Shown one piece after another: positions 394-41,683 of a stretch of 44,734 bases of DNA. The stretch comes from a virus, in the IMG/VR virus record IMGVR_UViG_3300045003_000131, positions 1 through 44,734 of that record; one strand, written 5' to 3'. The notes under the pieces are model-generated. The model was given only the letters and a program-made list of their open reading frames with translations, made no database searches and was not told the DNA's origin. Each line of letters opens with the position of its first letter. Position 1 is the stretch's first letter. Position numbers and translations under genes: made by a program.

Positions 394-2043
394 ATGCCCA
401 ACTTCTTCAACCGTGCCCTGCTCGGGCTGACCAATTCCCTCGTCACGCGGCCCGATGTCTCGGTGGCCCGCGCCTACGGCTTCGCCAACACGGAAGCGGC
501 AAGGAAGGACTTCTTCGAGAAACCGCTGGAGCGATCGTTCGGCTTCGAGGGCGCGTGGTACGACCGGACCAACTCGAACTGGATCGCGTGGCGCTCGTCG
601 CTCGACGCGATCCTGCGCACCTCGATCTGGATTCTGGTCGGCCGCTGCCGCGACCTCCAGCGCACGAATTCTATCGTGCAGCGGGCGCTCAACCTCTGGA
701 AGAACAACGTGGTCGGGCCGCACGGCCTGCGGCTGCGGGTCAACCTGCGCAAGCCGGACGGCTCGCCGGAGACGGACCTGAACCGGACGATCAATGACCA
801 GTGGAGCTACTTCTGCTGCGCGGAGAACCTGACGCCGGCGGGCGACATGGACATGGTGGAATTCCAGAAGCACCTCGTCACCCTCGCGGCGATCGATGGC
901 ACGTGCCTCGTGCGCATCTTCCGCGATCCGAAGCTGCCGTTCGGCATCGCTTTTCGCATCCTGGAGCTGGACCTGCTCGACCTGACCAAATTCGAGAACC
1001 GCACCGAGTCGGACGTGGAGATCAAGTTCGGTATCGAGAAGAAGCGCGACAGCGGGAAGATCGTGGCCTACTGGCTGTACCTGACTAACCCGAACGACCT
1101 GTCGCTCGCCTCGAATTTCAAGGCCGGCAAATCGTTCCGCGTCCCGGCCGACGAGATCGTGCTGGTGATGAAGCCGGAGCGTCCGATGCAGACGATCGGC
1201 GTGCCGTGGTTCGTGCGGGCGATGACCAACCTCCACATCCTGCAGGCGTACACGAAGGCCACGCTCATCAAGGCGCAGATGACCGCGAGCTACTTCATCT
1301 TCATCCTGAACGATCTCGCGGTCACGGAGGGCGACATGGGCCTGAACGGCGACCCGAACGGCTTCCAGCAGCTCCCGGTGGACAACGGCATCGCCCTCGA
1401 ACTCAAGCGCGGGCAGAAGGTCGAGAACGTGGCGCCGCCGGCGCAGGCGGGCGACATGGAGGCGCTATTCAAGTGGACGCTGCGCTTCATCGCCGGCGAC
1501 CTCAATCTCGCCTACCACGCGCTGTCGGGCGATCTCTCGCAGTCGAACTACTCGGCGACGCGGATCGACGAACTGGAAGCGCGCTGCGGCTACATCTGCG
1601 AGCAGGTCTGGCTGGGCGGCCCGCGCGCGATGCGCCCCCTCTTGCGGGAATGGCTCAAGGTCCAGCTCCTCCGGCAGAAGGAGATCAAGGCCCCGGACTC
1701 GGACCTGCAGCGGATCATGTATGCCGCGCAATGGGTCGGGAAGCGGTGGGACTGGATCGACCCGAAGAACGAGGCTGCGGCCGAACTGCAGCTCATCAAC
1801 GCGGCGCTCAAGAGCCGCACGCAGTACCTCCAGGAACGGGGCCACAACCTCGAAGACCATATTTCGGAGCTGGAGTACGAGCAGGTGCAGATGAAGGACT
1901 CCGAGATCGTGATCCAGACCTCCAGCGGCCAGCAGCTCGAATTCGGCCAGACCGATCCGCAGCAGCAGCCCGCCGGCACCGCCAAGGGAGGCAAGCCCTC
2001 GGGCGATGGCGGCTCGGACGAGGGCGAGGGCCAAGGCGAATAA
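394..2043 (+). CDS. Portal protein, lambda gpB type
   Basis: 549 aa, the usual size for lambda-family portals (Phage_portal_2). The portal forms the dodecameric DNA entry ring at one capsid vertex and docks the terminase. The N-half carries the family pattern NSIVQRALNLWKNNVVGPHGLRL around residues 92-114. The clearest signature is GDLSQSNYSATR near residue 380, the counterpart of the lambda-type D-S-Y-S-S-A-R segment. The acidic Gly-rich tail (residues 510-549) is low-complexity. The gene sits between the connector and the protease/capsid gene, the standard order. Its start is preceded by a pyrimidine run (cttcctccctcctgacc), not a Shine-Dalgarno sequence. Confidence 0.95.
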   Translation: MPNFFNRALLGLTNSLVTRPDVSVARAYGFANTEAARKDFFEKPLERSFGFEGAWYDRTNSNWIAWRSSLDAILRTSIWILVGRCRDLQRTNSIVQRALNLWKNNVVGPHGLRLRVNLRKPDGSPETDLNRTINDQWSYFCCAENLTPAGDMDMVEFQKHLVTLAAIDGTCLVRIFRDPKLPFGIAFRILELDLLDLTKFENRTESDVEIKFGIEKKRDSGKIVAYWLYLTNPNDLSLASNFKAGKSFRVPADEIVLVMKPERPMQTIGVPWFVRAMTNLHILQAYTKATLIKAQMTASYFIFILNDLAVTEGDMGLNGDPNGFQQLPVDNGIALELKRGQKVENVAPPAQAGDMEALFKWTLRFIAGDLNLAYHALSGDLSQSNYSATRIDELEARCGYICEQVWLGGPRAMRPLLREWLKVQLLRQKEIKAPDSDLQRIMYAAQWVGKRWDWIDPKNEAAAELQLINAALKSRTQYLQERGHNLEDHISELEYEQVQMKDSEIVIQTSSGQQLEFGQTDPQQQPAGTAKGGKPSGDGGSDEGEGQGE

Positions 2044-2064
2044 CTGACACCCTCCGAAACTCGT

Positions 2065-4188
2065 ATGCCCGCCGCACTGCTCGAAATCGACATCTCCAAG
2101 CCGGAAGGTCTCAGGGACGTTCGCCACCGGCTGCACGACCTAGACGCGGCCGAGGCGCTGCGTGTCGTTGACCGCAACCATCGCGACGCTGGCCTGAACG
2201 GCTTCCGCCGGGCCATGGCCGGGGTCCGCATCCTCGACGCGGAGAAGCGCACGGTCGAACTCTCCTTCTCCTCCGAGCAGCCGGTGCAGCGGTGGTTCGG
2301 CACGGAAATCCTGTCCCACGCCGAAGGCGCTGTGGATATGGACTGGATCAACTCCGGCAACGCGCCGCTCCTGTGGATGCACGACGGCCGCACTCAGATC
2401 GGCGTCGTCGAGAGCGCGGCCCATGACGTGAAGGGCAAGCGCACGACGGCCGTGGTCCGCCTCGCCAACGATGACGAGGGCACGAAGTTCCTCAACCGGG
2501 TCAAGGACGGCATCATCAAGAACGTGTCGGTTGGATACAGCATCTCGGCGTGGTCGCGCACGACCACCGAGACCGACGACCCCGACGAGGACAGCAACGA
2601 CATCTACACCGCGACGCGCTGGCGCCCGCACGAAATTTCCCTGGTCAGCACCCCGGCCGACGAAACTGTCGGCGTCGGCCGGAGCGGCAACACGCTGGTT
2701 CGTTGCCCTGACACAAAAACACTTCCGACGAACCTCAGCCCAGCCTCCTCTCCTACCATGTCCACCGCTCCCGCCACCACCGAAGCCGACGCCGCTCGCG
2801 CCGCGAATGAAGCCCTGCAGGCCGCCATCGCCAACGAGCGCGCTCGGACCTCCGCGCTTCACGACCTGCGCCGCCGGTACGACCCGGATGGGACGCTGGT
2901 CAAGGACGATGAATTCCGCGCGTTCATCGACAACAAGGACGGCAAGCAAGACGAGCTGGCCTTCCGCCGCTACCTCGAAGGTAAGAACGCCACCCCGACG
3001 CGGATGGCTCCCTCGGGCGTGGTGGTCACGCGGAACGAGGGCGACAACGACCCGACCCCGCTGCTCCACGCGCTGCGCGGCCTCGTCTTCGGCAACATGC
3101 CGAAGCGTTTCACCGAGCAGAGCAACGCGCTCATCAGCGCCTCGCCGAAGGCTTTCCAGCCGGCGGCCGAGAACGAGCGTCGGCTGGTGATCGACTCGGC
3201 GAGCGTGCGGGCCAACGGCCACCGCTTCCCCGGCCTCGACAGCGGCGTCCGCGCGCAGAACGCGCAGCAGCTCGCCGCCGGCGGCGCCCTGATCGGCGTC
3301 ACGTTCGCGCCGGAGATCATCCCCTATCTGCGCCCGCAGCCGGTCTTGGAACAGGCCGGCGCCCGGATCATGTCCGGGATCAGCGGCGGACCCGGCAACA
3401 TCCGCTTCCCGAAGCAGGCCGGCGACATCTACGCCTCCTGGGCCGCCGCCGGCGTGGCCTCGGTCGCCAACCAGCTCCCGCTGGGCGTCCTGGACCTCAC
3501 GCCGAAGCGGCTCGTGGCCCAGGTGCAGATCGACCGCCAGCTTCTCCTCCAGGAGAGCTTCGACATCGAGGCTTATGTCCGCAACTCGATCAACCTGCAG
3601 TTCGCCCTAGCCTACGACCTCGCGGGCCTGATCGGCAACGGCAACGGGATGCCGCTCGGCATCCTGAACACGCCCAACATCCAGAAGGGCGCCGTCACCT
3701 TCCACGGCACGAACGGCTCGCCGCGCTACTCGGACTTCGTGAGCTTCCGCACGAAGGTCTTGAAGGCGAACGCCGGCGGCCTCGGCAAGCGCGCCTTCAT
3801 CAGCTCGCCCGACTCGGTGCAGAATTGGGCGACGGTCCCGCTCGCCCCGGACGGCGCGACCACGATCACGAACGGCCTGTTCGTGCTCGACCAGGACAAC
3901 CGGGTGCGCCGGGAAGACTGCCACGAGACCACCTACCTGAATACGCTGCCCACGGCGTACCAGAACGCCGGCTACACCCTGCCGGTCCCGGACGTGGTGC
4001 TCTACGGGCCGTTCGGCCAGTACATCTTCATCGAGTGGGCCGGGGTGGAGTGGATTTACGATCCCTACACCCAGGCGTCGGCCGACCTGATCGTGCTGAC
4101 CGCCCGCCTCTACGTGGACGGCGGCTGCCTGCAGCCCACCGCCTTCGTCACCTCCTCGAACGCCGGCAGCGTCACCTACGCCCCGTAA
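2065..4188 (+). CDS. Prohead protease fused in frame to HK97-type major capsid protein
   Basis: 707 aa. Residues about 45-205 form an S78-like prohead protease: His106 in LLWMHD, Ser155 in NVSVGYS, and the family motif HEISLVSTPAD at 189-199. Residues from about 232 are an HK97-fold capsid protein with an N-terminal helical scaffold-like stretch (232-310), a shell domain starting near RRLVIDS, and the motif GNGMPLGILNTP typical of these shells. The protease normally cuts the scaffold/delta region during maturation, and here it would cut its own polyprotein. An in-frame ATG at 2758 (codon 232), behind a leader like those of neighbouring genes, probably makes the capsid protein alone (about 476 aa). 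The fusion would then be the minor product. Confidence 0.92.
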   Translation: MPAALLEIDISKPEGLRDVRHRLHDLDAAEALRVVDRNHRDAGLNGFRRAMAGVRILDAEKRTVELSFSSEQPVQRWFGTEILSHAEGAVDMDWINSGNAPLLWMHDGRTQIGVVESAAHDVKGKRTTAVVRLANDDEGTKFLNRVKDGIIKNVSVGYSISAWSRTTTETDDPDEDSNDIYTATRWRPHEISLVSTPADETVGVGRSGNTLVRCPDTKTLPTNLSPASSPTMSTAPATTEADAARAANEALQAAIANERARTSALHDLRRRYDPDGTLVKDDEFRAFIDNKDGKQDELAFRRYLEGKNATPTRMAPSGVVVTRNEGDNDPTPLLHALRGLVFGNMPKRFTEQSNALISASPKAFQPAAENERRLVIDSASVRANGHRFPGLDSGVRAQNAQQLAAGGALIGVTFAPEIIPYLRPQPVLEQAGARIMSGISGGPGNIRFPKQAGDIYASWAAAGVASVANQLPLGVLDLTPKRLVAQVQIDRQLLLQESFDIEAYVRNSINLQFALAYDLAGLIGNGNGMPLGILNTPNIQKGAVTFHGTNGSPRYSDFVSFRTKVLKANAGGLGKRAFISSPDSVQNWATVPLAPDGATTITNGLFVLDQDNRVRREDCHETTYLNTLPTAYQNAGYTLPVPDVVLYGPFGQYIFIEWAGVEWIYDPYTQASADLIVLTARLYVDGGCLQPTAFVTSSNAGSVTYAP
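2744..2760 (+). promoter_or_regulatory. Internal translation start for the capsid protein
   Basis: The sequence cctcctctcctacc-ATG lies in frame at codon 232 of the protease/capsid gene. It is nearly identical to the leader of the next gene (ctcctcctacc-ATG before 4235). The residues upstream of it (about 205-231) look like an unstructured linker, and those after it begin a typical capsid scaffold helix. This suggests a nested start producing free capsid protein in excess over the protease fusion. Inferred; no expression evidence. Confidence 0.6.
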
Positions 4189-4234: not shown

Positions 4235-4651
4235 ATGCTCGATCTGAACGCTGAAATCACCGCCCTGCAGCTCCTCCCGCAGCAGGCGATCACCGGCACG
4301 GTGACGGGCACGGGCGTCGCGGTCTCGACTCTCAACACCGGCGATCTCGACTTCGCCGAGTTGATGATTACCGGGATCACCGGCGCCGGCTCGATCGTCG
4401 TGCAGCTCCAGGGGTCCTCGACCCTGAACGGGACGTACACGAATCTCGCCACGTCCGCCGCGATGCCCTCCACGGCCTTCGCTCCGGTCACGGCGAACAT
4501 GACCACGCCCGTCCGCCTGCCGGTCGATCCCCGCGCCCTGCCGCCCTTCGTCCGGGCTGTCGCCACCGTCACCGGCATCACCGCCGCTACGATCGAGTGC
4601 CAGCTTTTCGGCCGCTCGCTGCAGACGGGCTTCCCGAGCACGTCGGGCTGA
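4235..4651 (+). CDS. Probable head decoration or cement protein
   Basis: 138 aa, rich in Thr, Ala, Gly and Val with alternating beta pattern. A segment VQLQGSSTLNGTYTNL resembles the beta hairpins of small phage surface proteins. There is no catalytic motif, signal peptide or membrane segment. It is the first gene after the capsid protein and the last before a strong terminator, the usual place for a highly expressed decoration protein. The leader is ctcctcctacc-ATG with no Shine-Dalgarno. The role is inferred from position and composition; a minor head protein is the main alternative. Confidence 0.75.
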   Translation: MLDLNAEITALQLLPQQAITGTVTGTGVAVSTLNTGDLDFAELMITGITGAGSIVVQLQGSSTLNGTYTNLATSAAMPSTAFAPVTANMTTPVRLPVDPRALPPFVRAVATVTGITAATIECQLFGRSLQTGFPSTSG

Positions 4652-5221: not shown

Positions 5222-5989
5222 ATGCCTGGAATTCGCTCCAGCTTCGAGGTCAACATCGACGGCCTCACGTCGAAGATGGCCGAGTACGCTCGCCTGTCGC
5301 AGAGCGCGAAGCCGAAGGGCGAGATCATCCGCAACCAGCTCGCGCTGATGCTGCGGGCCGTGATCGACCTCACGCCCTTCGATACGCTGGCCCAGGGCCG
5401 CACCGTGGTCCACCGGGACCTCCTGCGAGCGGTCAAGCCGTATGGCGGCGAGGACGGTAGCTTCTCCAAGGTGACAGCGAAGGGCCTGCGGGAACGGCTG
5501 GCCTCCTACCTTCGGTCCCGCGCCTACGACAAGATCAAGGACGTGTTCGACCACCTGAACAAGAAAGGCGGATACTATTCTGGCTGGCAGTTCGTCGATT
5601 TCTCTCCGGCACTGCACCATCAGGTCCAGAGCCGGCGCGGCCGGGTGGACACGGATCACCGGGTACTCACCCCGCAGGTGCAGGAGTGGAAAAACTACCT
5701 CGCGCAGCTCCAGCAGAACGTTGGCCGGGCGCGCGGCGGGTGGACCAAATCGGCGCAGGCGGTCGGCCTGTCGCTGCCGCAATGGGTGACGCGGCACGGC
5801 GCCGGCGGCGCGGTCCAGGCGATCGTCCAGCCCGGCCTGATCCAGTTCACCTTCACCAACCGATCGGTCTTCATCCCGGACTACCGGACCAAGGTCGAAC
5901 TGGCCCTGGCCGGGCGCGAGAAGGCCATGGCCGCCGACCTGCGCCGCATGTACGCTGGGTTCACGACGCACGCCGGCTTCGGCCGCTGA
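5222..5989 (+). CDS. Tail completion / minor tail protein (HK97 gp10-like position)
   Basis: 255 aa, longer than the usual 130-200 aa of gp10/gpZ-like neck proteins. The sequence is basic and helical. The C-half has the order typical of these proteins: a helix with GRARGGWTKSAQAVG (about residues 169-183), then a beta segment (QPGLIQFTFTNRSVFIPDY), then a helix. It sits directly upstream of the tail-terminator-like gene. A neck or tail-completion role is inferred from order and this pattern. Translation starts 9 nt after a hairpin at the end of the long leader. Confidence 0.75.
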   Translation: MPGIRSSFEVNIDGLTSKMAEYARLSQSAKPKGEIIRNQLALMLRAVIDLTPFDTLAQGRTVVHRDLLRAVKPYGGEDGSFSKVTAKGLRERLASYLRSRAYDKIKDVFDHLNKKGGYYSGWQFVDFSPALHHQVQSRRGRVDTDHRVLTPQVQEWKNYLAQLQQNVGRARGGWTKSAQAVGLSLPQWVTRHGAGGAVQAIVQPGLIQFTFTNRSVFIPDYRTKVELALAGREKAMAADLRRMYAGFTTHAGFGR

Positions 5990-8832: not shown

Positions 8833-9837
8833 ATGCAACTCTTCCTCGACACTACCGCCCTGGCCCTGGTCGTCGGCCCCAATGACACGCGGCGGACGCT
8901 GCCCCCGATCATCACGATCGGCGACAAGGCGCCGGTCACGTTGACCGGCCTTGTCCGCAACCCGCAGCCGCTAAACACGGGGAACCCGGTCTATAACTAC
9001 GTCGATCTGTCCTCGGCCGCGATCGTGCTCTCGATCGGCCCGGCCGCGAACGCCCCGACGAACGGCAGCTTCACCTTGACCTTCGGGGCCAACACGACGC
9101 CGGCGCAGCCGTGGAACGTGGACTGCATCACCCTCGGCAACGCCCTCAACGCCCTCGCCTCGATCGTGGCGGCTGGTGGCGTCACCGTGACCGGGCCGAT
9201 CGGCGGCCCCTTCTACGTCACTTTCGGGACGCTGGGCGTCCAGAGCACGCTGCTCACGGTCGGCACGAACTCGCTCTATCCAGCAACCGGCATCACAATC
9301 ACGCGCAGCCAGACCGGCACGGCCGCGCTCGCCGAGGTCCAGGCGATCACGCTGCAGCAGCAGGCGACGGCCAAGGTCACGGCCTGGACTCCCCAATCCG
9401 CGCCCGCGATCACCGTCACCTCGATCAACGGCACCGTGACGCAACGGGTCGCCATCCCGGCCGGGACCTATGGCGGGACGTTCACCCTCACCCTGAACGG
9501 CAATACGACGACGCCCATCCCCTTCGCAGCCCAGCTCGACGTGGTGGCGGCGGCGATCAACGCCCTACCCGGCGTCACGGGCGCGACCGTCTGGCCCGGT
9601 CAGAATTTTTGGGACATCACGATCCCCGGAAACACCTTCGCGATCACCGGCACGGCGACCGGCCTCATCGTGCCGCTCAACCTTTCGGGCACGCTCGACC
9701 TGTCCACGCAGCAGGTGGCCGACCTCCTGGCCGGAGCCGCGAGCGCGCAGGTGCCGCTCCTCATTCAGCAGACGGCCGGCGGCAACACCCTCACCTACTA
9801 CTCGGGCATGATCCAGCTCAACGCCCCGCTGCAGTAA
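8833..9837 (+). CDS. Tail protein with two repeated beta domains, paralogue of the large fibre
   Basis: 334 aa, Thr/Ala/Gly rich. The N-terminal segment (residues 1-70) is followed by two related beta domains at about 75-150 and 205-285. The first has the pattern TFGANTT-AQPWNV--ITLGNALNALASI--AGGVTV-G--GGP. This domain type is widespread in phage and bacterial surface proteins as ALEALP-G-GNVTVTG-GGPYTVTF repeats. The whole protein aligns by eye with the N-terminal 340 residues of the 884-aa protein at 11697, so the pair arose by duplication. Probably a baseplate or fibre attachment protein. Confidence 0.75.
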   Translation: MQLFLDTTALALVVGPNDTRRTLPPIITIGDKAPVTLTGLVRNPQPLNTGNPVYNYVDLSSAAIVLSIGPAANAPTNGSFTLTFGANTTPAQPWNVDCITLGNALNALASIVAAGGVTVTGPIGGPFYVTFGTLGVQSTLLTVGTNSLYPATGITITRSQTGTAALAEVQAITLQQQATAKVTAWTPQSAPAITVTSINGTVTQRVAIPAGTYGGTFTLTLNGNTTTPIPFAAQLDVVAAAINALPGVTGATVWPGQNFWDITIPGNTFAITGTATGLIVPLNLSGTLDLSTQQVADLLAGAASAQVPLLIQQTAGGNTLTYYSGMIQLNAPLQ

Positions 9838-9838
9838 C

Positions 9839-10453
9839 ATGGCCAACATCACGCTACGCACGGGAGCATTTGGCATCTCCGGCTGGATCAAGCAGCCGGG
9901 CGAGCGCGACGTGACCAAGCGCACCGGGATCGTCGAGCGCACCACCTTCTACAAGACCTTCGGCTATCCCACCGGCCTGCCCACGATCCACGTCACGGCC
10001 TATCCTGACCAGACGCAGAACCAATTTGTCTGCGACGAGATCGAGGTCGTGCAGCTCACCGGCGGCTGGTACTCGCTCAAGATCACCTGGGTCGCGATCC
10101 TGAACGCCGGGTATCAATACGTCACCTACGAATCGAAGTTTATCCAGGTCCCGATTGAGCAGAGCGACGACTTCATCGACATCGCCGGCACGCCGGAAAA
10201 TCCGCAGAACCTCGCGATCTTCGACGCCAATGGCCAGTTCATCGGCTTCGGTCCTGGCAGCGCGTACTACGGGGTGGTGAGCGTCTATAAGGCGCAAAAC
10301 CTCATGGTTGTGCGCGGCAGCAGCTCCCAGCCGGCGACGGCGCGCGACGACATCTTCCTCGAATCGGCGACGCAAACGCTGCGCGGGGCGGTGTGGGAAT
10401 TCGAGTTTGTTTACAACCTGGACATCGACATCGAGACCGGCATCCCGACCTGA
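9839..10453 (+). CDS. Beta-rich virion protein, unknown family
   Basis: 204 aa starting 1 nt after the previous stop, so probably translationally coupled. Mostly beta by pattern with many aromatic residues (GGWYSLKITWVAILNAGYQYVTYESKF). No signal peptide or catalytic motif. It lies among fibre and adhesin genes and is likely a virion part (fibre hinge or baseplate). No family recognised. Confidence 0.75.
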   Translation: MANITLRTGAFGISGWIKQPGERDVTKRTGIVERTTFYKTFGYPTGLPTIHVTAYPDQTQNQFVCDEIEVVQLTGGWYSLKITWVAILNAGYQYVTYESKFIQVPIEQSDDFIDIAGTPENPQNLAIFDANGQFIGFGPGSAYYGVVSVYKAQNLMVVRGSSSQPATARDDIFLESATQTLRGAVWEFEFVYNLDIDIETGIPT

Positions 10454-10456
10454 GCC

Positions 10457-10963
10457 ATGGCCTCCCCCGGCGACAATCTGCGCAAGGTCTGGACGGCGGA
10501 CTTCTACAACCGGCTGGTCCAGCTCCTCTCGGCCAACGGCCCCTCGATCACGGTCTCCGGCCGTGGCTTCGCGAGCAACGGACGCAAAGGCAGCTCGATC
10601 GTCATCAAGGACCCGCAGCAGCCGCTCTCCACGATCCAGGGCATCCTGACGGGCGGGGCGGCGCCGGCCGTGACCGATGGCACGGTGATCGTCGATCCGC
10701 GATCCTGGGGCGGCTACAGCGTGCAGGCGGCCTACTTCCGCTGCACGACCGGATCGACCAACGTGACGGTGCTGGTCGGCGGCACGCCGGTCTCCTGGCT
10801 CAACGCGATCGCCGTGACCGGCGTTGGTCAGACGATCTTCATCCCGAACCCGGTGCCGGACGTGACGCACGTGATCGCGGCCGGACAAAGCCTCAGCATC
10901 CAACTGGCAGGCTCCTCCTCGGACTGCACCGGCTTCACGTTCTCGCTCAACTGCCCCTTCTGA
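10457..10963 (+). CDS. Small adhesin-region virion protein
   Basis: 168 aa, starting 3 nt after the previous stop. An N-terminal helix (DNLRKVWTADFYNRLVQLL) could trimerise or dock. The rest is Gly/Thr/Ser-rich beta (FRCTTGSTNVTVLVGGTPVSWLNAIAVT), the kind seen in phage surface beta-sandwiches. Unknown role in the tail region. Confidence 0.75.
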   Translation: MASPGDNLRKVWTADFYNRLVQLLSANGPSITVSGRGFASNGRKGSSIVIKDPQQPLSTIQGILTGGAAPAVTDGTVIVDPRSWGGYSVQAAYFRCTTGSTNVTVLVGGTPVSWLNAIAVTGVGQTIFIPNPVPDVTHVIAAGQSLSIQLAGSSSDCTGFTFSLNCPF

Positions 10964-11000
10964 CATCTCCCGATCCCTGAACCCTCAATCCTCCACAGCC

Positions 11001-11681
11001 ATGAACAAAGTCCTCGCTCTCCTCGTCGGCCTCTCGGCCGTCTCGTTCGCCTCGTTCGCCAACGCGCAAGCGTTGCCCTACGCCAATGTCACCACGACCC
11101 AGCTCGACGCCAACGGCAGCTACCAGCGAACGGTCACGCCGACCGGCGCCGGCGTCGCCGGCGACTACTGGTACGTCGATGGCAACGGGCAGCCGCAGCA
11201 CCAATCGCCCGGCCTCACCAGCGCCGGCACCACGGCCGGCATCGTGGTCAACTACTCCCAGGCTCTCCGGCGCTCGATCCTCAAGGTGACGGTGCCGTAT
11301 AGCGCCTTCTCGGCTGCGGCCAAGACGGCGGACGTGGTGATCGCCACGATCCAGCCGAAAGCGAAGATCGTCGGCATCGTCGAGGATGCCACCGTGGCCT
11401 TCACCGGCGGCGGTGAAACGGCGGCTACCCTGATGCTCGGCGTCACGACCGGCGGCAATACGCTGCTCGTCGCCAACTCGGTCTTCACCACGGCGACCTG
11501 GGGGCTTGCGGATGCGGACGCCGGCACGGCCTTCACCCGCGCGGCTCAAATCCAGGGCGGCTATATCCCGTCGTGGACCACCTCGACCAACATCTCGGCG
11601 CGGCTCACGACCACGACGAACAACACGTCGGGCCTCACCGCCGGCTCGGTCACGTACTACATCATCACCGAGCAGTATTGA
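11001..11681 (+). CDS. Virion-type beta protein with a Sec signal peptide (1 of 3)
   Basis: 226 aa. The first 24 residues are a textbook Sec signal: basic MNK, hydrophobic VLALLVGLSAVSFASF, and an ANA-QA cleavage site. The mature part ends in a beta-sandwich pattern common in phage structural proteins (ILKVTVPYSAFSAAAKTADVVIATI ... VEDATVAFTGGGETAATLMLGVTTGG). An export signal is unexpected on a virion protein, which is normally assembled in the cytoplasm. It may be exported to the periplasm or surface, or the signal may be a captured host segment. The leader is pyrimidine-rich (ccctcaatcctccacagcc). Confidence 0.85.
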   Translation: MNKVLALLVGLSAVSFASFANAQALPYANVTTTQLDANGSYQRTVTPTGAGVAGDYWYVDGNGQPQHQSPGLTSAGTTAGIVVNYSQALRRSILKVTVPYSAFSAAAKTADVVIATIQPKAKIVGIVEDATVAFTGGGETAATLMLGVTTGGNTLLVANSVFTTATWGLADADAGTAFTRAAQIQGGYIPSWTTSTNISARLTTTTNNTSGLTAGSVTYYIITEQY

Positions 11682-11696
11682 TCCCGAGGGCCGGTC

Positions 11697-14351
11697 ATGG
11701 CTGCACCGCTGATCCTCTACATCGACACGACCCGGAAGGTACTGGTCGCCAATTTCACGGCGACCGTATCTCCGGGTTCCTTCGCCTTGGAGCAGGGCGA
11801 CAACGTGCCGGTGCAGCTCCATTTCCTGCAGGCGAACACCGCGTCGCAGCAGCCCAACGCGCTTCCCTACTCCTACATCGACCCGGCGACGGTGACGCCG
11901 GTGACGATGGCGATCGGTCAGGTGGGACTCGTGCCCACCTCGGGCACCTTCACCGTCACTTTCGGCGCCAACACGACGGCGGCCCAGCCCTTCAACGTCA
12001 GCGCGGCCACGCTGCAGACGGCCCTCAACGCCCTGGCTTCGATCATCTCGGCCGGCGGCGTCACCGTGCAGGGCAACAACGGCGGCCCATGGACGGTCAT
12101 CTTCAATAACACGGGCGCGCAGTCGAACCTGCTCGCGATCGGCGCCGGCGAGCTGGTGCCGCCCAGCCTGGGCCTGACGCAGCGCGCCGTGATCGGCGCG
12201 ACGGGCGTCCAGGAGCAGCAGGTCATGACCCTGGTGCAAATCCCGGCCGCCGTGCAGAACACGTGGACGCCGACGTACCCGATGATCGGCGTCTCGCGGC
12301 TGCAGGCCGGCGGCGCGGGCCTGAACGAAATCCAGCGAGTCACGATCCCGACCGGAACGTACTCTGGCACCTTCTCCCTGGCCTTCGGCGGCAAGAGCAC
12401 AGCCAGCCTTGCCTATAACATCAGCGCCTCGGCCCTGCAGACCGCGCTGGCGGCCCTGTCCACGATCGGGGCGAACAACGTCAACGTGGTCCAGTCCGGG
12501 GTCTGGACCTACGACATCACGTTCGTCGGCGCCCTGGCTGGCTTGAGCCAGTCGCTCATTGTCGCCAGCGGCGCTGGCCTCTCCTCGCCGATGTATTTGT
12601 CGGCCCAGGTCAACCTCAACACGCAGGGCATCTTCAACCTGCTGACCGGGCTGACCTCGATCCTGACGACCTTGCAGGTGCAGCAGGGCAGCTCCGGGAA
12701 CATCAACACGGTGCTGCAGATGCCGATCACGCTGAACGCGGCGCTGATCCTGGGCACCCCATCCGTGCCCAACCCCTCGGACCCCTGGCAGACGCTCTCC
12801 CAGGTGAACGCCTTGATCGCGGCGGCTGCCTACGTCCTGCCGGCGGCCACGACGAGCGCGCTGGGCGGGGTCAAGGTGCCGGGCGCGGGCAATCTCCTGG
12901 TGGACGGCTCGGGCAACATCAGCGTCCCGACCGGCACGAATACGACCTTCGGCGTCTTCAAGGTGGACAACGCCACGATCACGGCGCCGGGTGGCGTGCT
13001 GACCGTGGTCAGCTCCTATTCCCTGCCGCCGGCGACGACCACGACCCTCGGCGGCGTGAAGGTCCCGGCCGCCGGCAACCTCTCGGTCGATGGGGCGGGC
13101 AACATCAGCGTCGCCGTGGCGACGGCTGGCGCGGTGGGCGTCGTCTCGGTGCCGACCGCCAATGGCCTCTCGGTGAACGGCTCCGGTGTCCTCTCGATGG
13201 CCCAGGCCACGGCCGGCTCGCTCGGAACGGTCCAGCCGGACGGCACCGTCATCACGGTCGCTGCCGGCGTCATCACTGTGCCCCAGGCCACCAACGCCGC
13301 CTTCGGCGTCGTCAAGGTGGACGGCACTTCGATCGTGTCCGTGGCGGGCGTGATCTCGGCCGCGAACGGCAGCTCGCCGGCGTCGCCCACGGCCAAGGTG
13401 GGCCTCTCGGTCGTCAACGGGTCCTCGTCCTCGTTCATGCGCGCGGACGCGGCACCGCCGCTCGATCTTACGATCGTCCCGACCTGGACCGGATCGCACA
13501 GCTTCACGGCGGTCACGAACAGCTTCGGCGGCGGCGGCACGGGCGCCGTCAACGCGATCGTCGTCATCAACTCCGGCTCCGGGTCGGGCGCGTCGCCCAC
13601 CCTGCAGTTCAATTCCAACTCGACCCAGCGGGCGCAGCTCCTCCTGGGCACGGCGACCGGCGTCAGCGGCCCGGCCGCGAACGATTTCTGCGTGATGGGG
13701 ATCGGGACGAGCCTCGTCTGGTTCATCTCGAATTCGGTGGCGGCCGTCTCGGTCAGCTCGACCGTGATGGCGATCAAGCCGACCACGGCCGCGACGAGCG
13801 CGGGCGGCGGCGCCCTGACCAACGCCGGCGGCATGGCCACGGCCGGTAGCACCCGCTGCCAAGTCGGCACGTCGGCCGTGTACGCGGCGGCCGGCGGCAC
13901 CGTGTTCGAGCACTTCACCGGGGTCTCGAACGGGACCAACGTCGAGACGACTCTGTTCAGCGACACCCTCGCCGCCAATTCTCTCGTGACGAACGGCGAC
14001 ATGCTGCGGATCAGCTACGGGCTTACGACGCTGGCGCACGCCAGCGCGACCCGCGAGATCAGGTTTTACTTCGGGGCCACGGTCCTCTTCGACTCGACGG
14101 CTCAGACCACGGTCTCGGCCGGCACGGCGATTCTGGAAATCCTCCTCATCCGCCAGAGCAGCACGGTCCTCGTGTACCAGATTCAATTCAACTGCCCGCA
14201 GATGCCGACGCCGGTTATCCTGAACGTGGGCACGCTGACGGCGCAGAGCTTCACGGTGACGAATCTCCTCAAACTCACCGGCCAGTCGTCGAACACGACC
14301 GGCGACATCACCGCCCTGACCGGCCGCATCACCTACCACCCCGCAGTCTGA
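11697..14351 (+). CDS. Large tail fibre / receptor-binding protein
   Basis: 884 aa without signal peptide. Residues 1-340 are paralogous to the protein at 8833, including the ALNALASI-GGVTV beta domains. Residues about 380-560 hold collagen-like fibre repeats of the form TTLGGVKVP-AGNL-VDG-GNISV, a classic phage fibre shaft. The C-terminal 160 residues (from VFEHFTGVSNG) form a separate beta domain like the knob of short phage fibres. Likely trimeric and involved in host recognition. It lies between two signal-peptide-bearing genes. Confidence 0.85.
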   Translation: MAAPLILYIDTTRKVLVANFTATVSPGSFALEQGDNVPVQLHFLQANTASQQPNALPYSYIDPATVTPVTMAIGQVGLVPTSGTFTVTFGANTTAAQPFNVSAATLQTALNALASIISAGGVTVQGNNGGPWTVIFNNTGAQSNLLAIGAGELVPPSLGLTQRAVIGATGVQEQQVMTLVQIPAAVQNTWTPTYPMIGVSRLQAGGAGLNEIQRVTIPTGTYSGTFSLAFGGKSTASLAYNISASALQTALAALSTIGANNVNVVQSGVWTYDITFVGALAGLSQSLIVASGAGLSSPMYLSAQVNLNTQGIFNLLTGLTSILTTLQVQQGSSGNINTVLQMPITLNAALILGTPSVPNPSDPWQTLSQVNALIAAAAYVLPAATTSALGGVKVPGAGNLLVDGSGNISVPTGTNTTFGVFKVDNATITAPGGVLTVVSSYSLPPATTTTLGGVKVPAAGNLSVDGAGNISVAVATAGAVGVVSVPTANGLSVNGSGVLSMAQATAGSLGTVQPDGTVITVAAGVITVPQATNAAFGVVKVDGTSIVSVAGVISAANGSSPASPTAKVGLSVVNGSSSSFMRADAAPPLDLTIVPTWTGSHSFTAVTNSFGGGGTGAVNAIVVINSGSGSGASPTLQFNSNSTQRAQLLLGTATGVSGPAANDFCVMGIGTSLVWFISNSVAAVSVSSTVMAIKPTTAATSAGGGALTNAGGMATAGSTRCQVGTSAVYAAAGGTVFEHFTGVSNGTNVETTLFSDTLAANSLVTNGDMLRISYGLTTLAHASATREIRFYFGATVLFDSTAQTTVSAGTAILEILLIRQSSTVLVYQIQFNCPQMPTPVILNVGTLTAQSFTVTNLLKLTGQSSNTTGDITALTGRITYHPAV

Positions 14352-14360
14352 TCCTCTCCC

Positions 14361-15809
14361 ATGAAAAATCCGCTCCACTTCATCCTCTTCCTCCTCGCTG
14401 CCTCGATCGCCGCTGCCAGCACGAACACGCCCCGCTGGGTCATCAACTACTATGACGACAGCGGCAATCTGATCGCGAAGCAGCTCCCGGTCACGTCGTA
14501 CAACCAGGGTCAGGTGCTCACTGTCGGATCGGACAACACCCCCACAATCGCCCCGACCATCCTGCCGTCCTTCGGCCAGACGGTGTACGTCTCGAAGTCC
14601 GGCAACGATGCCACTGGCAACGGCTCGTTCACCCAGCCGTACCTCACGATCTCGCAGGCCATGGCCTCGATCACCGACGCGGCCAGCTCGAAGTATTACC
14701 AGATTCTCGTCTCGGCCGGGACCTACACCGAGAACGTCGTGCTCAAACCGGCGGTCTTCCTCTGCGGCAACGGCGGGGGCGGCGAAGCCGGCGCGGTACG
14801 GATCAACGGCACCCTGACCCTCAACTCGGCCTTCTCAACCACGGCGGCCCGCGCCGGGCTGCAGAACATCGCGGTCCTCTCGAACGTCACCTTCGACCTC
14901 GCCTCGATCGGCGGCGGCGTGAGCACGACGCTCGACTGCTTCAACTTCTCCTGCCTCGGCAACTTCCTCTGGACCGGACGCGGCGCCACCGATGGCATCT
15001 TCTGGACCACCGGCTATTGCATCGGCACCTCCACCTTCACCGGGGGCGCGCCTACGTGCTCCCTGGTCCAATTCGTCGGGAACTGGATCGGGCAGGACTC
15101 GGCCAGCGTGCCCACGGCCCAAACCTATGTCTCGTGCTATTTCGTCAACGGCACGCAGAACATCGTGGACAACGGCGCCGGCCAGACGATCGTGCGGCTC
15201 TTCGGCTGCCCGGCGCTGATCGGATCGCTGACGATCAATGGCGTGGGCTGCACGGTGTACGCGGACATCGCCTCGCTGCCGGCGACCTCGGGCCTGACCC
15301 TGACGAGCAGCCCGACCCTGGTCCGTTTCACCGACGCCTTCGGCATGAATTTCTCGCCGACCACCTCCGGCGACTGGCAGACCTCGCCGACCCAGGTCCA
15401 CGGCGCCCTCGATGCGCTCGCGACGCGGGGCAAGATCACGACCTCGACCGTGGCCACTGGCTCGGCCGTGGCGCTCACTACGGCGACGACGGCCAACGTC
15501 ACGAGCGTTTCCCTGTCCGCCGGCACCTACGACGTGACGGGCGTCGTGGATTTCAAGCTCTCGTCCGCGACGATGACGCAGCAGCAGTTCGGTATCTCGA
15601 CGACGAGCGCGACCTTGGGCGCCCAGGACACGTTCGGCCATACCGTCGAGTCCACCACGACCCTGACGCTCGACGCTGTGGGCCTGCCGTGCCCCACGGT
15701 GCGGCTCACCCTCGGCTCGACGACCACCGTGTACCTCGTGGCCCAGGCCACGTTCTCGGCCGGTACGGTCTCGGCCTACGGCACCCTGCGCGTCGTGCAG
15801 GTGAAGTGA
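14361..15809 (+). CDS. Secreted beta-helix tail spike-like protein with signal peptide (2 of 3)
   Basis: 482 aa. N-terminal Sec-like signal (MKNP, hydrophobic LHFILFLLAASIAAA, cleavage near AAS-TN). Residues about 75-130 start with VYVSKSGNDATGNG ... QPYLTISQAM, the entry motif of right-handed parallel beta-helix proteins (pectin-lyase fold, DUF1565-like) found in tail spikes and secreted enzymes. The last 120 residues (STVATGSAVALTTATTANVTSVSLSAGTYDV onward, in short) match a beta domain common at phage fibre tips. Leader gatcctctccc-ATG. A polysaccharide-binding or depolymerising role is inferred; no catalytic residues can be assigned. Confidence 0.8.
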   Translation: MKNPLHFILFLLAASIAAASTNTPRWVINYYDDSGNLIAKQLPVTSYNQGQVLTVGSDNTPTIAPTILPSFGQTVYVSKSGNDATGNGSFTQPYLTISQAMASITDAASSKYYQILVSAGTYTENVVLKPAVFLCGNGGGGEAGAVRINGTLTLNSAFSTTAARAGLQNIAVLSNVTFDLASIGGGVSTTLDCFNFSCLGNFLWTGRGATDGIFWTTGYCIGTSTFTGGAPTCSLVQFVGNWIGQDSASVPTAQTYVSCYFVNGTQNIVDNGAGQTIVRLFGCPALIGSLTINGVGCTVYADIASLPATSGLTLTSSPTLVRFTDAFGMNFSPTTSGDWQTSPTQVHGALDALATRGKITTSTVATGSAVALTTATTANVTSVSLSAGTYDVTGVVDFKLSSATMTQQQFGISTTSATLGAQDTFGHTVESTTTLTLDAVGLPCPTVRLTLGSTTTVYLVAQATFSAGTVSAYGTLRVVQVK

Positions 15810-15818
15810 CCTCCTCCC

Positions 15819-16211
15819 ATGAAACGCATCCTCCAATCCATCCTGCTTGTCGCGGCGCTCGTGGCCGCCCGCCCGGCCTTCGCCCTGGGCGCCTTCACCA
15901 ACGCGGCCGTGACTAACTCGGCCGTGCTCGTCAGCTCGACGCCGGCGACCCTCACCTTCATCAATGTCGCGAACGCGAACGCCTCGATCGTGTACGTGCA
16001 GGTGTTCAACGCCTCGGCTGCGAATCAAGTCACGGTGGGCACGACGGCGCCGGTCTTCTGGTTCCCGGTCACAACCTCGAACCCGATCAACCAAGAGCTG
16101 CACCTGGGGTACACGTTCAGCAAGGGGATCGTGATCGCGGTGACTACGACTCCCACCGGCGGTACGGCGCCGGGCACCGCCTGTCCGGTCGTGCTCTTCA
16201 CCGCGATCTAG
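15819..16211 (+). CDS. Small beta-sandwich virion-type protein with signal peptide (3 of 3)
   Basis: 130 aa. Signal: MKR, hydrophobic ILQSILLVAALVAA, then PAFA-LG with an A-x-A cleavage motif. The mature part follows the pattern of a small phage structural domain (strand, FINVANANASIVYVQVFN, TVGTTAPVFWFPV, then a GIVIAVTTT strand) seen on decoration and fibre-associated proteins. Leader gacctcctccc-ATG. The stop codon shares the palindrome ctag (16208-16211) with the stop of the convergent minus-strand gene, so there is no spacer or terminator between them. Confidence 0.8.
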   Translation: MKRILQSILLVAALVAARPAFALGAFTNAAVTNSAVLVSSTPATLTFINVANANASIVYVQVFNASAANQVTVGTTAPVFWFPVTTSNPINQELHLGYTFSKGIVIAVTTTPTGGTAPGTACPVVLFTAI

Positions 16212-18577
16212 GTGTGTGTGGGCGGCAGGACGCGGTTCCCGCTCGTGTCGCAGGCGCACAACACCTCGTAGCCGGGGCCGCCGGCCTGGAAGGGCGCAAA
16301 GGATGGCGGGTTCAGCACGTTGCCAGACAGGTCGGTCGGCGACGGCGACGGCCCGGCCAGACTGAGGTAGGTCGGGCAGTAGTGGCTGCCGAAGTACAGG
16401 TGGCCGCTCTTCACGACCAGGGCGTTCGGCCCAAAGCGCATCCCGTCCGTGCGGGCCAGCGACCAGAAGTTCGTCCAGAGATTCGCGTCGAAGGCCGTGT
16501 CCACGTTGCCCGAGCTGTCGATCACGAGGATCGGGCATTTGGTGATGATCGTGCTGGCGCCGCTTTTGCCGGCGTTGATCGCGTAGTTCAGCGGCGCTCC
16601 GAGCGTGCTGACGTAGCGCGGCAGATACGGTAGCGCGATCGCGAACCCGTTCTTGAACGGCACCACGGCCACTTGGCACTGCGTATAGAGACCTCGATAT
16701 AGGTTCTGGCCCTGGTTGGTCAGGGTGTTCGCGCGGCTGAGGGCGATGTTGAGTCGGATCACGCCGGGGATTGTCACGATCCAGTTGTAGTTCGATGAGG
16801 CCGGGTCCTTGTAGGCGAAGGCGTGGCAGATTACCCCGGCGTTGACCGCGAGGCCGGAGGAGTCCGGGACGGTCACGGCCGTCACGCCGAGGGAGCTGGT
16901 GACATTGGTCGGCGCCGGGATATTGGTCACGTGGCCTCCGGCGGAATCGCAGAGCGTGACGAAGGTGGCGTCGATCTCGTTGAGCGGGGTGTAGGTGCCG
17001 GCCAGCCCGGCGCCATCATAGACCATGCGACCGGAGAGATAAGGGAAGTAGGTCGCCCCGGTCGGCATCGTGATCGTGACGGTGTTCGTTATCGTCCAGT
17101 TGTTCGCGGACCCGGTGAGGACCGGGCTTTGCGACATGGTGCAGTCCGGGAAGAGGCTCGCGATCGCGGTGCCGATCTGCGTCATGTCGCTCGTCAACGG
17201 CACGGTGGCGTATCCGCCGGCCGATCCGCCCCAAACGTCGTACTGATAATTCGGCGACGTGGTGAGGACGGTGATCTGCACCGTGATCGTGAGGACGAGG
17301 CCGCTGCGGGTGAAGAATGTGTTGGCCGTGATCTTGGGCGACGGGATGTTCACCGGATCGGATGGCTGGCGCTGGTTGAAGCTGTCCTGCAGGAATAGGC
17401 CGCCCCCAAGAGGCGCGGGGATCGCCATGGAGAACCGGCCGCTGGAGAACTGCGAGGACAGCGCGCCGGTCGCGTCGATCAGGAACGGGGCGTTTACGCC
17501 GGTCGCCCCATAGGTGAGCGCGGGTCCGGTCAGGACGCCGGTCGAGGCCGAGATGAAATACTGCTTCGTCACCGACCCGGCCGAGCTGCCCGGATTGACC
17601 GTGGGCCACGAGGTAAAATAGAGCAGGCTCGTCGGCGTCGAGTTGTTCGTCATCAGGTGCGGCGAGAAGAAGCCGAAGTTCGATCCGCCGTCGCCAAACA
17701 CGAGGAAGTCCGGCTGCACGCTGATCGCACTGTTCTTCACGATGGCCAAGCCGGCGAACCCAGGCACGAGGGCGCCGCTCTTTGCGTTCACCAGGGCGAA
17801 GCTCGTGATCGGATTCTGCACGCCGCCCTTATAGTAATCGAGCGAGTTGCGGGCGCCGAATAGCAGGCAGGGCTGGCTGGAGACCAGGGCGGCCGCGGCG
17901 CTGTCGGAGAGCGCGGCCGTGGTCCCGCCGCGAGTCATCGTGCCGAGCGTCTTTTGCTGCACGGTGCCGTCGCTGCCGATCAGCAGGCCGATCGCCTGCC
18001 CTTCGCCCGTCGCCGGCGTGATCGTCTGCACGCATTGGGTGCTGGGCGATCCAGGCGAGACGATCGCGATCAGCACGGCCGAGATGTTCGAGCCGGTGGT
18101 GTTGATCGTGTTCACCGCCTTCACGAACGGGAGCTGCGCCCCATTGTTGTTGAAGGTGACGGTGTACGGGCCGCCGGTCGCCCCGCTCACGGTCACGCCG
18201 CCCACGGCCGCCACGGTCGAGATCGCGTTGAGGTTGGCCTGCACGGTCGCGGCCGTGGCCGGCGCCGTGATATTGGCGCCGGTGACGGCATTGTACGACA
18301 CGCTCCAGAGGCCGCCCGTCGCGGCGACCGGCGCCGGCATGATGTTCGGGTCGATGACCGCGTAGCCGACGCCGCCCGTGCCTCCCTTGCCGAAGGCCGA
18401 GAAGATGCTGTAGAGGCCCAGGCTCGCGTCGCGGTTGCGAAGGAAGATCGAGCCGTCCGGCAGACCAATCATGTCGCTGAACCCGCCGTTGGGATTCAAA
18501 GCGGTGCTGGGGCCGCCGTACACCCAAACCGGGATCGTGCCGGCGGCCGTGGGGAGGAAAAGCCTGCGCGTGCTCAC
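16208..18577 (-). CDS. Large beta-rich virion/adhesin-like protein on the opposite strand
   Basis: 789 aa. Residues about 95-165 repeat the beta domain of the plus-strand tail proteins (ITAPATAATVQANLNAISTV ... GGVTVSGATGGPYTVTFNN). Scattered segments such as ILVIDSSGNVDTAF and LLIGSDGTVQ resemble delta-60 or propeller-like repeats, so a multi-blade surface protein is likely. It is the last gene of a minus-strand unit and starts inside the stop codon of the DnaC-like gene (ATGA overlap at 18574-18577). An adhesin coupled to a helicase loader is unusual. Confidence 0.75.
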   Translation of the reverse strand: MSTRRLFLPTAAGTIPVWVYGGPSTALNPNGGFSDMIGLPDGSIFLRNRDASLGLYSIFSAFGKGGTGGVGYAVIDPNIMPAPVAATGGLWSVSYNAVTGANITAPATAATVQANLNAISTVAAVGGVTVSGATGGPYTVTFNNNGAQLPFVKAVNTINTTGSNISAVLIAIVSPGSPSTQCVQTITPATGEGQAIGLLIGSDGTVQQKTLGTMTRGGTTAALSDSAAAALVSSQPCLLFGARNSLDYYKGGVQNPITSFALVNAKSGALVPGFAGLAIVKNSAISVQPDFLVFGDGGSNFGFFSPHLMTNNSTPTSLLYFTSWPTVNPGSSAGSVTKQYFISASTGVLTGPALTYGATGVNAPFLIDATGALSSQFSSGRFSMAIPAPLGGGLFLQDSFNQRQPSDPVNIPSPKITANTFFTRSGLVLTITVQITVLTTSPNYQYDVWGGSAGGYATVPLTSDMTQIGTAIASLFPDCTMSQSPVLTGSANNWTITNTVTITMPTGATYFPYLSGRMVYDGAGLAGTYTPLNEIDATFVTLCDSAGGHVTNIPAPTNVTSSLGVTAVTVPDSSGLAVNAGVICHAFAYKDPASSNYNWIVTIPGVIRLNIALSRANTLTNQGQNLYRGLYTQCQVAVVPFKNGFAIALPYLPRYVSTLGAPLNYAINAGKSGASTIITKCPILVIDSSGNVDTAFDANLWTNFWSLARTDGMRFGPNALVVKSGHLYFGSHYCPTYLSLAGPSPSPTDLSGNVLNPPSFAPFQAGGPGYEVLCACDTSGNRVLPPTHT

Positions 18578-20960: not shown

Positions 20961-21689
20961 ATGAACTCCCACTTCGCACGACACGTCGTTTTCTACGGGA
21001 TGCTGTTCACGCTTCTGGCCAACGCCTTCATCGACCAGTTCAACGGGCACGTCTCCCCCGCGCTCATCAGCGCCCTCAAATATCTCATCACTTGCGTCGC
21101 GATCACGGTCCCGTACCTGAACAAGCAACGCTCGGATGACGACGCGCCGGCGGCTCCGGCCGCCCCAGCCGCCGGGCCGGCGATCGTCCCGGCTGCAGCG
21201 AAGGCGGCCGTGATGCTGATCTTCGCCGGGATCGTCCTGGGCGGCATGTCGGGCTGCTCGACGACCGGGCAGACGATCGACGCCGCGACGACCACGCTCA
21301 AGGTCAAGGACTCCACCGGCAAGAGCTTCGCGGTGGGCTTCCCGAAGGAGCTGAACGCCGACACCTTCGTCCTCGATGTCGATCCGTCCACCGGGCACGT
21401 GAAGGTCTCGGCGAACAAAATCCAGACCAGCTCCTCGCAGATCATCGAGAACGCGGGCAATGCCAGTGCCCAGGCTACGCTGGCGATGGCCCAGGCTTTC
21501 CAGGCGCTCGCCCCGGCCGTGGCCCAGGCGGTCCAGGCCGCCGGCGCCGCCACGTCCGTCGCCGTGCCGGCCGCCGCGCCGGCGATCGCGGCAGCCAAGG
21601 TCGCCGCGTCTGCCCTGCCGCCGCCGCAGCCGCCGCCGGCAGCGCCCAAGGCCGAGCCGCTGCCGCCTCCCGAGCCTCCGACCAAGTAG
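20961..21689 (+). CDS. Membrane protein with internal lipobox and Pro-rich tail (holin/spanin-like fusion)
   Basis: 242 aa. Two N-terminal membrane segments (about 9-27 and 34-53) resemble a small holin or membrane anchor. A Pro/Ala linker leads to a third hydrophobic segment (84-98) ending in a lipobox-like LGGMSGC with Cys99. Then comes a beta region, an Ala-rich helix, and a proline-rich end (PPPQPPP ... PPPEPPTK). Lipidated proline-rich proteins are typical outer-membrane spanins (Rz1-like). A second start at Met85 (21213) could yield a separate lipoprotein. It opens the unit with the lipase and XhlA-like protein. Fusion or overlapping products: inference. Confidence 0.75.
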   Translation: MNSHFARHVVFYGMLFTLLANAFIDQFNGHVSPALISALKYLITCVAITVPYLNKQRSDDDAPAAPAAPAAGPAIVPAAAKAAVMLIFAGIVLGGMSGCSTTGQTIDAATTTLKVKDSTGKSFAVGFPKELNADTFVLDVDPSTGHVKVSANKIQTSSSQIIENAGNASAQATLAMAQAFQALAPAVAQAVQAAGAATSVAVPAAAPAIAAAKVAASALPPPQPPPAAPKAEPLPPPEPPTK

Positions 21690-24216: not shown

Positions 24217-24606
24217 TTATTTCCGGCAATAGTATAGGTTTAGGATGCGCTGGATCGAGTCGCGCTTATGCGGCGTGACCGCTCCGCGCCTGCCGCACTC
24301 GAACCACTGGACGATGATCTCCGGGCGCATCGTCATCGGCACATCGCGACAGACCAGCTCGTGATGCCACGCCAGCAGCAGCCGGCCCATAGTGGTCTCG
24401 GCGCAGCTCCGGCAGTTCGCGCGCTCGAACGGGACCTGGGAGAATTCTTCCCACAGGGCGCGGGTGAACTGGAAGCGCCCGCGCTCGCCCTGCGCTCCGA
24501 TCGCCTCGTCGTCGCAGCCGCTCTCCACCTGGGCGATGGCGTCCATGAGGCGCATGATCCCAAACTCCTCCTCGGCCGGCTGGACGATGGCAGGCGGCGT
24601 TATCAC
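24217..24606 (-). CDS. Lytic transglycosylase-like protein
   Basis: 129 aa from a GTG at 24606, chosen because it forms a GTGA overlap with the upstream stop (24603-24606). The catalytic region reads AIAQVESG (Glu28), then AIGAQGERGRFQF, the SLT pattern E-S-G ... G-x-x-G-x-x-Q. These enzymes cleave peptidoglycan between MurNAc and GlcNAc. It lies outside the lysis cassette, in the leftward early chain, and lacks a signal peptide. It could be the endolysin, an entry enzyme, or a regulatory relative. Confidence 0.75.
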   Translation of the reverse strand: MITPPAIVQPAEEEFGIMRLMDAIAQVESGCDDEAIGAQGERGRFQFTRALWEEFSQVPFERANCRSCAETTMGRLLLAWHHELVCRDVPMTMRPEIIVQWFECGRRGAVTPHKRDSIQRILNLYYCRK

Positions 24607-25103
24607 AGCGGTTCGAGCTGCCGGTGCTTGGGCAGATAGAGCGGATGGCAGGGGTGCCCGGAGTCGGTCTTGCCCAGGCAAAGCAGCGAGACGCCACGGG
24701 CGCCCAGCATCCCGCGCACGTCGGCCGCCCGGCCCGGATAGAATTCCCATCCAGTGCCCCAGCAGGCCACGGTCTTCATGGCCACGCTCGCCCAGGTCTT
24801 GATGATGTCGTCGTTGCTCGCGCCAACGACGTTGATGTCGCGGCGGTGGGCGCGGCGCATGTCATTGGGATCGGTGGCGCGGAAGGCGAATAGGTTCAGC
24901 ATGACGAAGGCCGTGCCGCCCTCGCGCTCGGTGAAGGAGCGGATGCGGCGCAGCGTGGGGTCGAGCTGCTGTTCGTCGGCCGTGGACGGATTCAGCCCGA
25001 TCCAGGCGACAATCTTCGGATGGCCCTCCTGCGGCGGCGCGATCGTGTGCAGGAGCGAATAGCGATAGACGCGATCGCTGGAGAAAACGCAGTCGTTGGT
25101 CAT
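24603..25103 (-). CDS. DUF1643 protein
   Basis: 166 aa. It follows the DUF1643 pattern closely: WIGLNPSTADEQQLDPTLRR near the N-terminus, NLFAFRATDP in the middle, ACWGTGW, then LGKTDSGHPCHPLYLP at the end. The biochemical role of the family is unknown to me; it is common in phages and mobile elements. ATGA overlap with the gene upstream. Confidence 0.85.
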   Translation of the reverse strand: MTNDCVFSSDRVYRYSLLHTIAPPQEGHPKIVAWIGLNPSTADEQQLDPTLRRIRSFTEREGGTAFVMLNLFAFRATDPNDMRRAHRRDINVVGASNDDIIKTWASVAMKTVACWGTGWEFYPGRAADVRGMLGARGVSLLCLGKTDSGHPCHPLYLPKHRQLEPL

Positions 25104-41437: not shown

Positions 41438-41683
41438 ATGAAAATCGACGCTCTCCGTGGCCTCATCCTCATCATCTGGATCGCCGGATCGCTGCACACG
41501 GCCGCGACCACGGCCAGCCTCGTCATGGTCAACCGCAACGTCACCGGACGATCGAAAATCCGCTTCGTTTTGATGGGCGGCCCGGCGGTCTGGCTAGTCC
41601 TGTTCGCCTGCTTCATGGCAGCCATGGCGATGAGCGCGATCTACCGCTGGAAGAACCGCCATGTCGAAAAAGGCCAAGGATAG
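41438..41683 (+). CDS. Small two-helix membrane protein
   Basis: 81 aa. Two membrane helices (about 8-30 and 43-67) and a basic C-end (RWKNRHVEKG). Position just before terminase and size fit a small holin or membrane accessory, but position alone does not prove it. It overlaps terminase small subunit by 23 nt. Confidence 0.65.
   Translation: MKIDALRGLILIIWIAGSLHTAATTASLVMVNRNVTGRSKIRFVLMGGPAVWLVLFACFMAAMAMSAIYRWKNRHVEKGQG

Follow-up and report, generated by a model that had tools for sequence, protein, structure and literature searches.

Assembly of tailed phages is regarded as an entirely cytoplasmic process. The Lom protein of phage lambda is an exported outer-membrane moron encoded between the tail-tip and side-fibre genes (PMC12309495). 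According to one paper, the target proteins of phage diversity-generating retroelements have no signal peptides, and the open-access literature, subscription papers being outside the search, yielded no report of signal peptides on fibre or cement proteins of tailed phages. Here we describe three neighbouring late genes, SP1, SP2 and SP3, in the uncultured virus record IMGVR_UViG_3300045003_000131 (44.7 kb, 66% GC; the whole stretch of 44,734 nucleotides is hereafter called the window). All three predicted proteins begin with a Sec-type signal peptide, and in SP1 and SP2 it precedes modules of the kind found in phage fibres or cement proteins.

The N-termini of SP1, SP2 and SP3 read MNKVLALLVGLSAVSFASFANA, MKNPLHFILFLLAASIAAA and MKRILQSILLVAALVAARPAFA up to the predicted cuts, after which the proteins continue with QAL, STN and LGA, respectively. 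Each has the basic n-region, hydrophobic core and small residues at positions −3 and −1 that characterise substrates of Sec and signal peptidase I. Signals were scored with a rule-based heuristic of our own built on these features (basic n-region, hydrophobic core, −3/−1 rule), which gives 7.2–10.2 for six E. coli signals (OmpA, PhoA, MalE, Bla, LamB and DsbA). The three proteins score 9.51, 9.75 and 9.40, and they alone reach 9 or more among the window's 204 six-frame open reading frames (ORFs) of 80 aa or more; none of 696 genes from 79 related viral loci does so. Composition-preserving shuffles of the N-terminus match the observed score in 0.25% of cases for SP1, 0% for SP2 and 5.7% for SP3, whose N-terminus is rich in A, V and L and whose signal is the weakest taken singly. 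No cysteine (and hence no lipobox) is present at the three cut sites, and no PEP motif occurs within the last 35 residues of any of the proteins, other sorting signals having been checked by eye only. The identity of these N-termini as signals of the Sec/signal peptidase I type is well supported; from the sequence we infer export, cleavage, a periplasmic location and presence in virions. The earlier note on this DNA placed the genes exactly (at 11001, 14361 and 15819), and its reading of clear signal peptides on all three stands, the rule-based prediction having rejected none. It was also right that the fibre they flank (11697–14351, 884 aa) has no signal.

The C-terminal ~150 residues of SP1 form a domain shared, at 41–52% identity, with fibre and tailspike proteins from other uncultured phages, in which the homologous module is likewise C-terminal. 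AlphaFold predicts a confident beta sandwich at residues ~90–150 and 190–226, with a pLDDT of 83–91 where the C-terminal domain is well modelled. In Foldseek, this model matches the cement proteins of KHP30 (7dn2), KHP40 (7dou) and Pam1 (7eel) with probabilities of 0.99–1.00 and TM scores by target of 0.50–0.55; these matches in the Protein Data Bank (PDB) have modest E-values (roughly 3e-3 to 2e-2), and the statement is one about fold only. At that level the modelled domain has the jelly roll of known cement proteins. Further Foldseek matches are to a TNF-like lectin and to jelly-roll capsids, and those in BFVD are to proteins of uncultured phages and a Caulobacter phage tail spike. There is no detectable sequence match of SP1 to PDB chains, and tblastn against cultured phages found nothing.

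SP2 matches the tail fiber family phrog_11393 over residues 355–481, its last 127 (E 2e-14), and the tail protein family phrog_4577 over residues 75–130 (E 5e-10); tblastn against cultured phages returned C-terminal matches only, to tail fibres. Judged by these matches SP2 is fibre-like, with no N-terminal virion-attachment domain found. Its structure, predicted without an alignment, has a pLDDT of 34 and is too poor for use. SP3 has no PHROG or Pfam match, and none of the three proteins matches a Pfam family of outer-membrane beta-barrels of the Lom type. The virion-type beta domains that the earlier note ascribed to all three proteins are thus supported for SP1 (by alignment, AlphaFold and Foldseek) and for SP2 (by its PHROG tail-fibre and tail-protein matches), and not for SP3.

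The SP1 domain was found in 12 lineages, of which 11 could be scored (that of L002 is cut at the N-terminus). Six of the 11, all of them uncultured, carry a signal, namely the window, L150, L151/L152, L161, L167 and L170. Given 0/696 among the background genes, chance does not account for this frequency (Fisher p about 3e-12); two cautions are that the domain itself links the rows and that a signal-bearing protein served as the query by which the set was assembled. The shafts differ among the signal-bearing proteins, and the conserved unit is therefore the signal plus the C-terminal module. The L161 protein lies in a head module, downstream of the portal, protease and major capsid protein (MCP); that of L151 follows a decoration-like gene and the MCP, and that of L167 the MCP, the MCP identities in these contexts being judged by eye from sequence. 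A tail-region placement is accordingly right for the window genes, with the qualification that several SP1-domain relatives sit in head modules. A signal also begins the product of the following gene in L150 and in L151. Fibre-type genes with signals number four in the L151 phage, of which one encodes LamG and another collagen repeats together with Peptidase_S74. The domain also occurs on pectate-lyase-type spikes (L154–L157). Its tree is weakly resolved and cannot date signal gains or losses; at least three changes are required, and a single origin is possible.

Two side observations concern these phages. Beyond L151 itself, record G006, which is the same phage, encodes two of these signal-bearing fibre-type proteins (L180 6133–7446 and L181 1713–2528), one of which matches a phage tail protein while the other has collagen repeats and Peptidase_S74. 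The L002 phage, which carries an SP1 relative, also encodes a small protein (5407–5970) with a hydrophobic, signal-like N-terminus and, by eye, NlpC/P60-like sequence, possibly an exported lysin.

Signals also occur on other proteins of related phages. L003 is a distant relative found through its terminase and MCP. The gene directly behind its MCP (9611–10309, equal to L191 11912–12610) starts with the signal MKLLKNILAISVLMTAFCHSAFAQ (score 9.97), and the gene at the same position in the window (4235–4651) and in L006 has none. The last two tail genes of L003 are signal-bearing as well, with MKNLLIALFACINAACFVFESAAQ (score 8.6) and MRRYILILIFLATLVQDAFCQ (by eye, under the cut of 8.5). Apart from MCP, portal and terminase, L191 resembles the window by gene position. 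Two pairings made by position and eye, of the 213-aa L191 fibre with the window protein at 11697 and of the L191 post-MCP protein with that at 4235, gave no blastp match and were not used as proof.

L054 (9698–10306) and L062 (7320–7928), from an Armatimonadetes bin and a bacterial bin, encode signal-bearing prophage proteins of beta type, in each case as the third gene behind the MCP. Both signals are strong, yet they are only 30% identical (dN 0.80), whereas the mature parts are 81% identical (dN 0.12). Random replacement at the diverged signal positions kept a signal in 41 of 5000 trials. The signal has thus diverged with its character kept, which points to the evolution of a cleaved signal, unlike that of a virion anchor; this fast divergence is seen for the L054/L062 pair alone, which is an analogue of the window proteins. 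No relatives of the pair turned up in a viral scan. The Sec-type signals, their recurrence in unrelated phages and the L054/L062 divergence together support export of adhesin- or fibre-like proteins, in line with the earlier suggestion that the phage may export adhesin-like ones. In L031, a Sphingorhabdus sp. 109 prophage, the protease–MCP fusion (9872–11902) starts with the signal-like MTKAIMLAGAASLMTSAAFAQ (score 8.15), and the gene next to it (11991–12434) starts with MAKKMMVWATCSLMVAGVAYTAGD.

Table 1. Genes and signal peptide coding regions in the window.
Feature	Coordinates	Strand	Remarks
Lambda-type portal and protease–MCP fusion	394–4188	+	PF05136, PF04586, PF05065; anchors the late module
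Tail protein without signal	8833–9837	+	phrog_10909 major tail protein, phrog_2839 tail sheath; domains in common with 11697 and 16208
Late genes of 204 and 168 aa, both signal-less, ahead of SP1	9839–10963	+	
SP1, 226 aa	11001–11681	+	Sec-type signal 1–22 (cut between ANA and Q), short linker, C-terminal jelly-roll domain ~74–226
SP1 signal peptide coding region	11001–11066	+	
Fibre without signal, 884 aa	11697–14351	+	Between SP1 and SP2
SP2, 482 aa	14361–15809	+	Sec-type signal 1–19 (cut between AAA and S), tail-protein-like segment, tail-fibre C-terminal domain
SP2 signal peptide coding region	14361–14417	+	
SP3, 130 aa	15819–16211	+	Sec-type signal 1–22 (cut between AFA and L), small domain, no family match
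SP3 signal peptide coding region	15819–15884	+	
GpA-type terminase large subunit	42211–44376	+	PF05876, PF20454

The rightward late genes (Table 1) extend to 16211 and end in a run comprising 10457–10963, SP1, the fibre, SP2 and SP3, with intergenic gaps of 37, 15, 9 and 9 nt. Because of this short spacing (9–37 nt), SP1, SP2 and SP3 are placed in the late operon. The leftward gene at 16208–18577 converges tail to tail with SP3. A repeat domain of ~85–345 aa, with 37–42% identity, is common to the proteins at 8833–9837, 11697–14351 and 16208–18577 (minus strand), and the N-terminal ~350 aa of the fibre are 37% identical to the 8833–9837 tail protein. In sequence, the 8833 protein and the N-terminal part of 11697 resemble duplicated copies, and the N-terminal domain that they share looks like a virion-attachment domain. 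No similarity to this domain was found in the signal-bearing SP proteins, and SP2 has its signal in that place. Composition-aware gene calling was used, length-only greedy calling losing SP1–SP3 to long antisense shadow ORFs.

Among the window genes tested there is no integrase. A Shine-Dalgarno-like motif is missing upstream of most window genes, SP1–SP3 included, and pyrimidine-rich leaders such as CCTCCTCCC stand ahead of several ATGs, a possible clue to the host group. Two other ORFs, at 41438–41683 and 20961–21689, have N-termini that resemble signals or membrane segments more weakly (scores 8.35 and 8.95); the latter is overlapped by antisense ORFs and is possibly not a real gene. The gene at 24217–24750 (minus strand) has a weak transglycosylase match (PF06737, E 5e-4, under the Pfam cut-off) and possibly encodes a muramidase outside the late operon.

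The cement and fibre proteins of several phages bind finished particles. The reading that we tentatively place first is that SP1–SP3 are late accessory virion proteins that would be exported by Sec and attach to virions when compartments mix at lysis. Fibre- or cement-type jelly-roll modules would be made late with signal peptides, pass through the Sec machinery of the host and be processed by signal peptidase I. They would then gather outside the cytoplasm, in the periplasm if the host is diderm, while the remaining particle assembles inside. At the holin step, breach of the inner membrane would let periplasm and cytoplasm mix with the outer envelope still confining them, and the proteins could attach to finished heads or tails. 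A benefit could be that sticky, lectin-like modules are kept away from cytoplasmic assembly and glycan precursors. Attachment at lysis is preferred because of the head-module position of the relatives and the cement fold, and among the functional options listed by the earlier note it is decoration at lysis that fits these two best. The wider proposition, that several uncultured tailed-phage lineages form part of their particle outside the cytoplasm, a set of fibre and cement proteins passing through Sec, being processed by signal peptidase and joining heads or tails at lysis, is a possibility, and a less firm one.

Several points weigh against attachment at lysis. It would be limited by dilution, and five of the 11 scorable SP1-domain lineages (L153, L154, L155–L157, L168 and L169) have no signal. 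KHP30 gp15, a cement protein of the same fold from a cultured phage, lacks a signal, and its chain is present in the virion from residue 1 onwards. The signal-bearing proteins had no relative among cultured phages in the searches made. The steps of export, cleavage and entry into virions are themselves inferred.

Only a little less probable is a role outside the virion, in which the proteins would be exported, fibre-derived lectins of the periplasm or cell surface that bind receptors or glycans and so block superinfection, mask receptors for progeny release or alter host adhesion, a role comparable with that of Lom. A Sec signal normally means life outside the cytoplasm, the exported Lom in the tail-fibre region of lambda is a positional precedent (PMC12309495), and the SP1 fold also resembles a TNF-like lectin. 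Counting mildly against such lectins, the proteins have no lipobox, PEP-type terminus or other obvious surface anchor, and receptor masking does not predict relatives in head modules or cement-like folds; moreover, the genes stand in the late operon and not in a separate moron cassette.

It is unlikely that the N-terminal hydrophobic segment stays uncleaved and anchors the protein in a membrane or in the virion, for example by tethering fibres to the membrane during assembly. Such segments can serve in this way, and cleavage of SP1–SP3 is a prediction, but each of the three combines a good cleavage site of A-x-A type with a positive n-region, and in L054/L062 the segment diverges freely with only its signal character kept.

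Still less probable is the capture of host surface proteins, or of host genes at a prophage edge, with no role in the phage cycle. Exported fibre-like proteins are present in many bacteria, but here the genes form part of the late operon and SP2 matches phage tail fibres. The SP1 domain ends many phage fibres and tailspikes, yet was found in 0/388 genomes of the phylum of a Verrucomicrobia bin, an empty answer that is weak evidence, and in 1/291 genomes of the phylum of an Armatimonadetes bin; for SP1, the acquisition from a host considered by the earlier note is not supported. An artefact of wrong start codons or chance hydrophobic N-termini is very improbable, for although the genome is GC-rich with few Shine-Dalgarno-like sites, the scorer is a heuristic and the composition of SP3 makes a signal-like start fairly easy, the three top-scoring ORFs of the window are three neighbouring late genes, none of the 696 background genes scores as high, and signals recur on homologues and persist under divergence.

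If export is real, these phages would have either an assembly pathway split between cytoplasm and periplasm or phage-made envelope lectins, so far unrecognised, that affect superinfection or release. The annotation of metagenomes would also change, a signal peptide being usually taken as the mark of a non-virion or host gene.

Among known systems, the C-terminal fold of SP1 is closest to the trimeric jelly-roll cement proteins, Helicobacter phage KHP30 gp15, KHP40 gp16 and capsid chain H of cyanophage Pam1, and, as with these proteins, several SP1-domain relatives are encoded beside the MCP. Unlike KHP30 gp15, SP1 has a signal and its gene lies in the tail region. Both SP1 and SP2 carry modules typical of fibres and tailspikes whose C-terminal heads can be exchanged (PHROG 11393 and 4577; the L154–L157 spikes), whereas known fibres of that kind begin with a virion-attachment domain instead of a signal. 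Signal-arrest-release endolysins and spanins are likewise late phage proteins that use host export; they act in lysis, whereas the window proteins carry domains of fibre type and lack any lysis domain. Lom-type morons of lambda share with SP1 and SP2 the position of an exported protein among tail-fibre genes (PMC12309495), but Lom is an outer-membrane beta-barrel, and SP1 and SP2 are fibre or cement modules encoded within the late operon.

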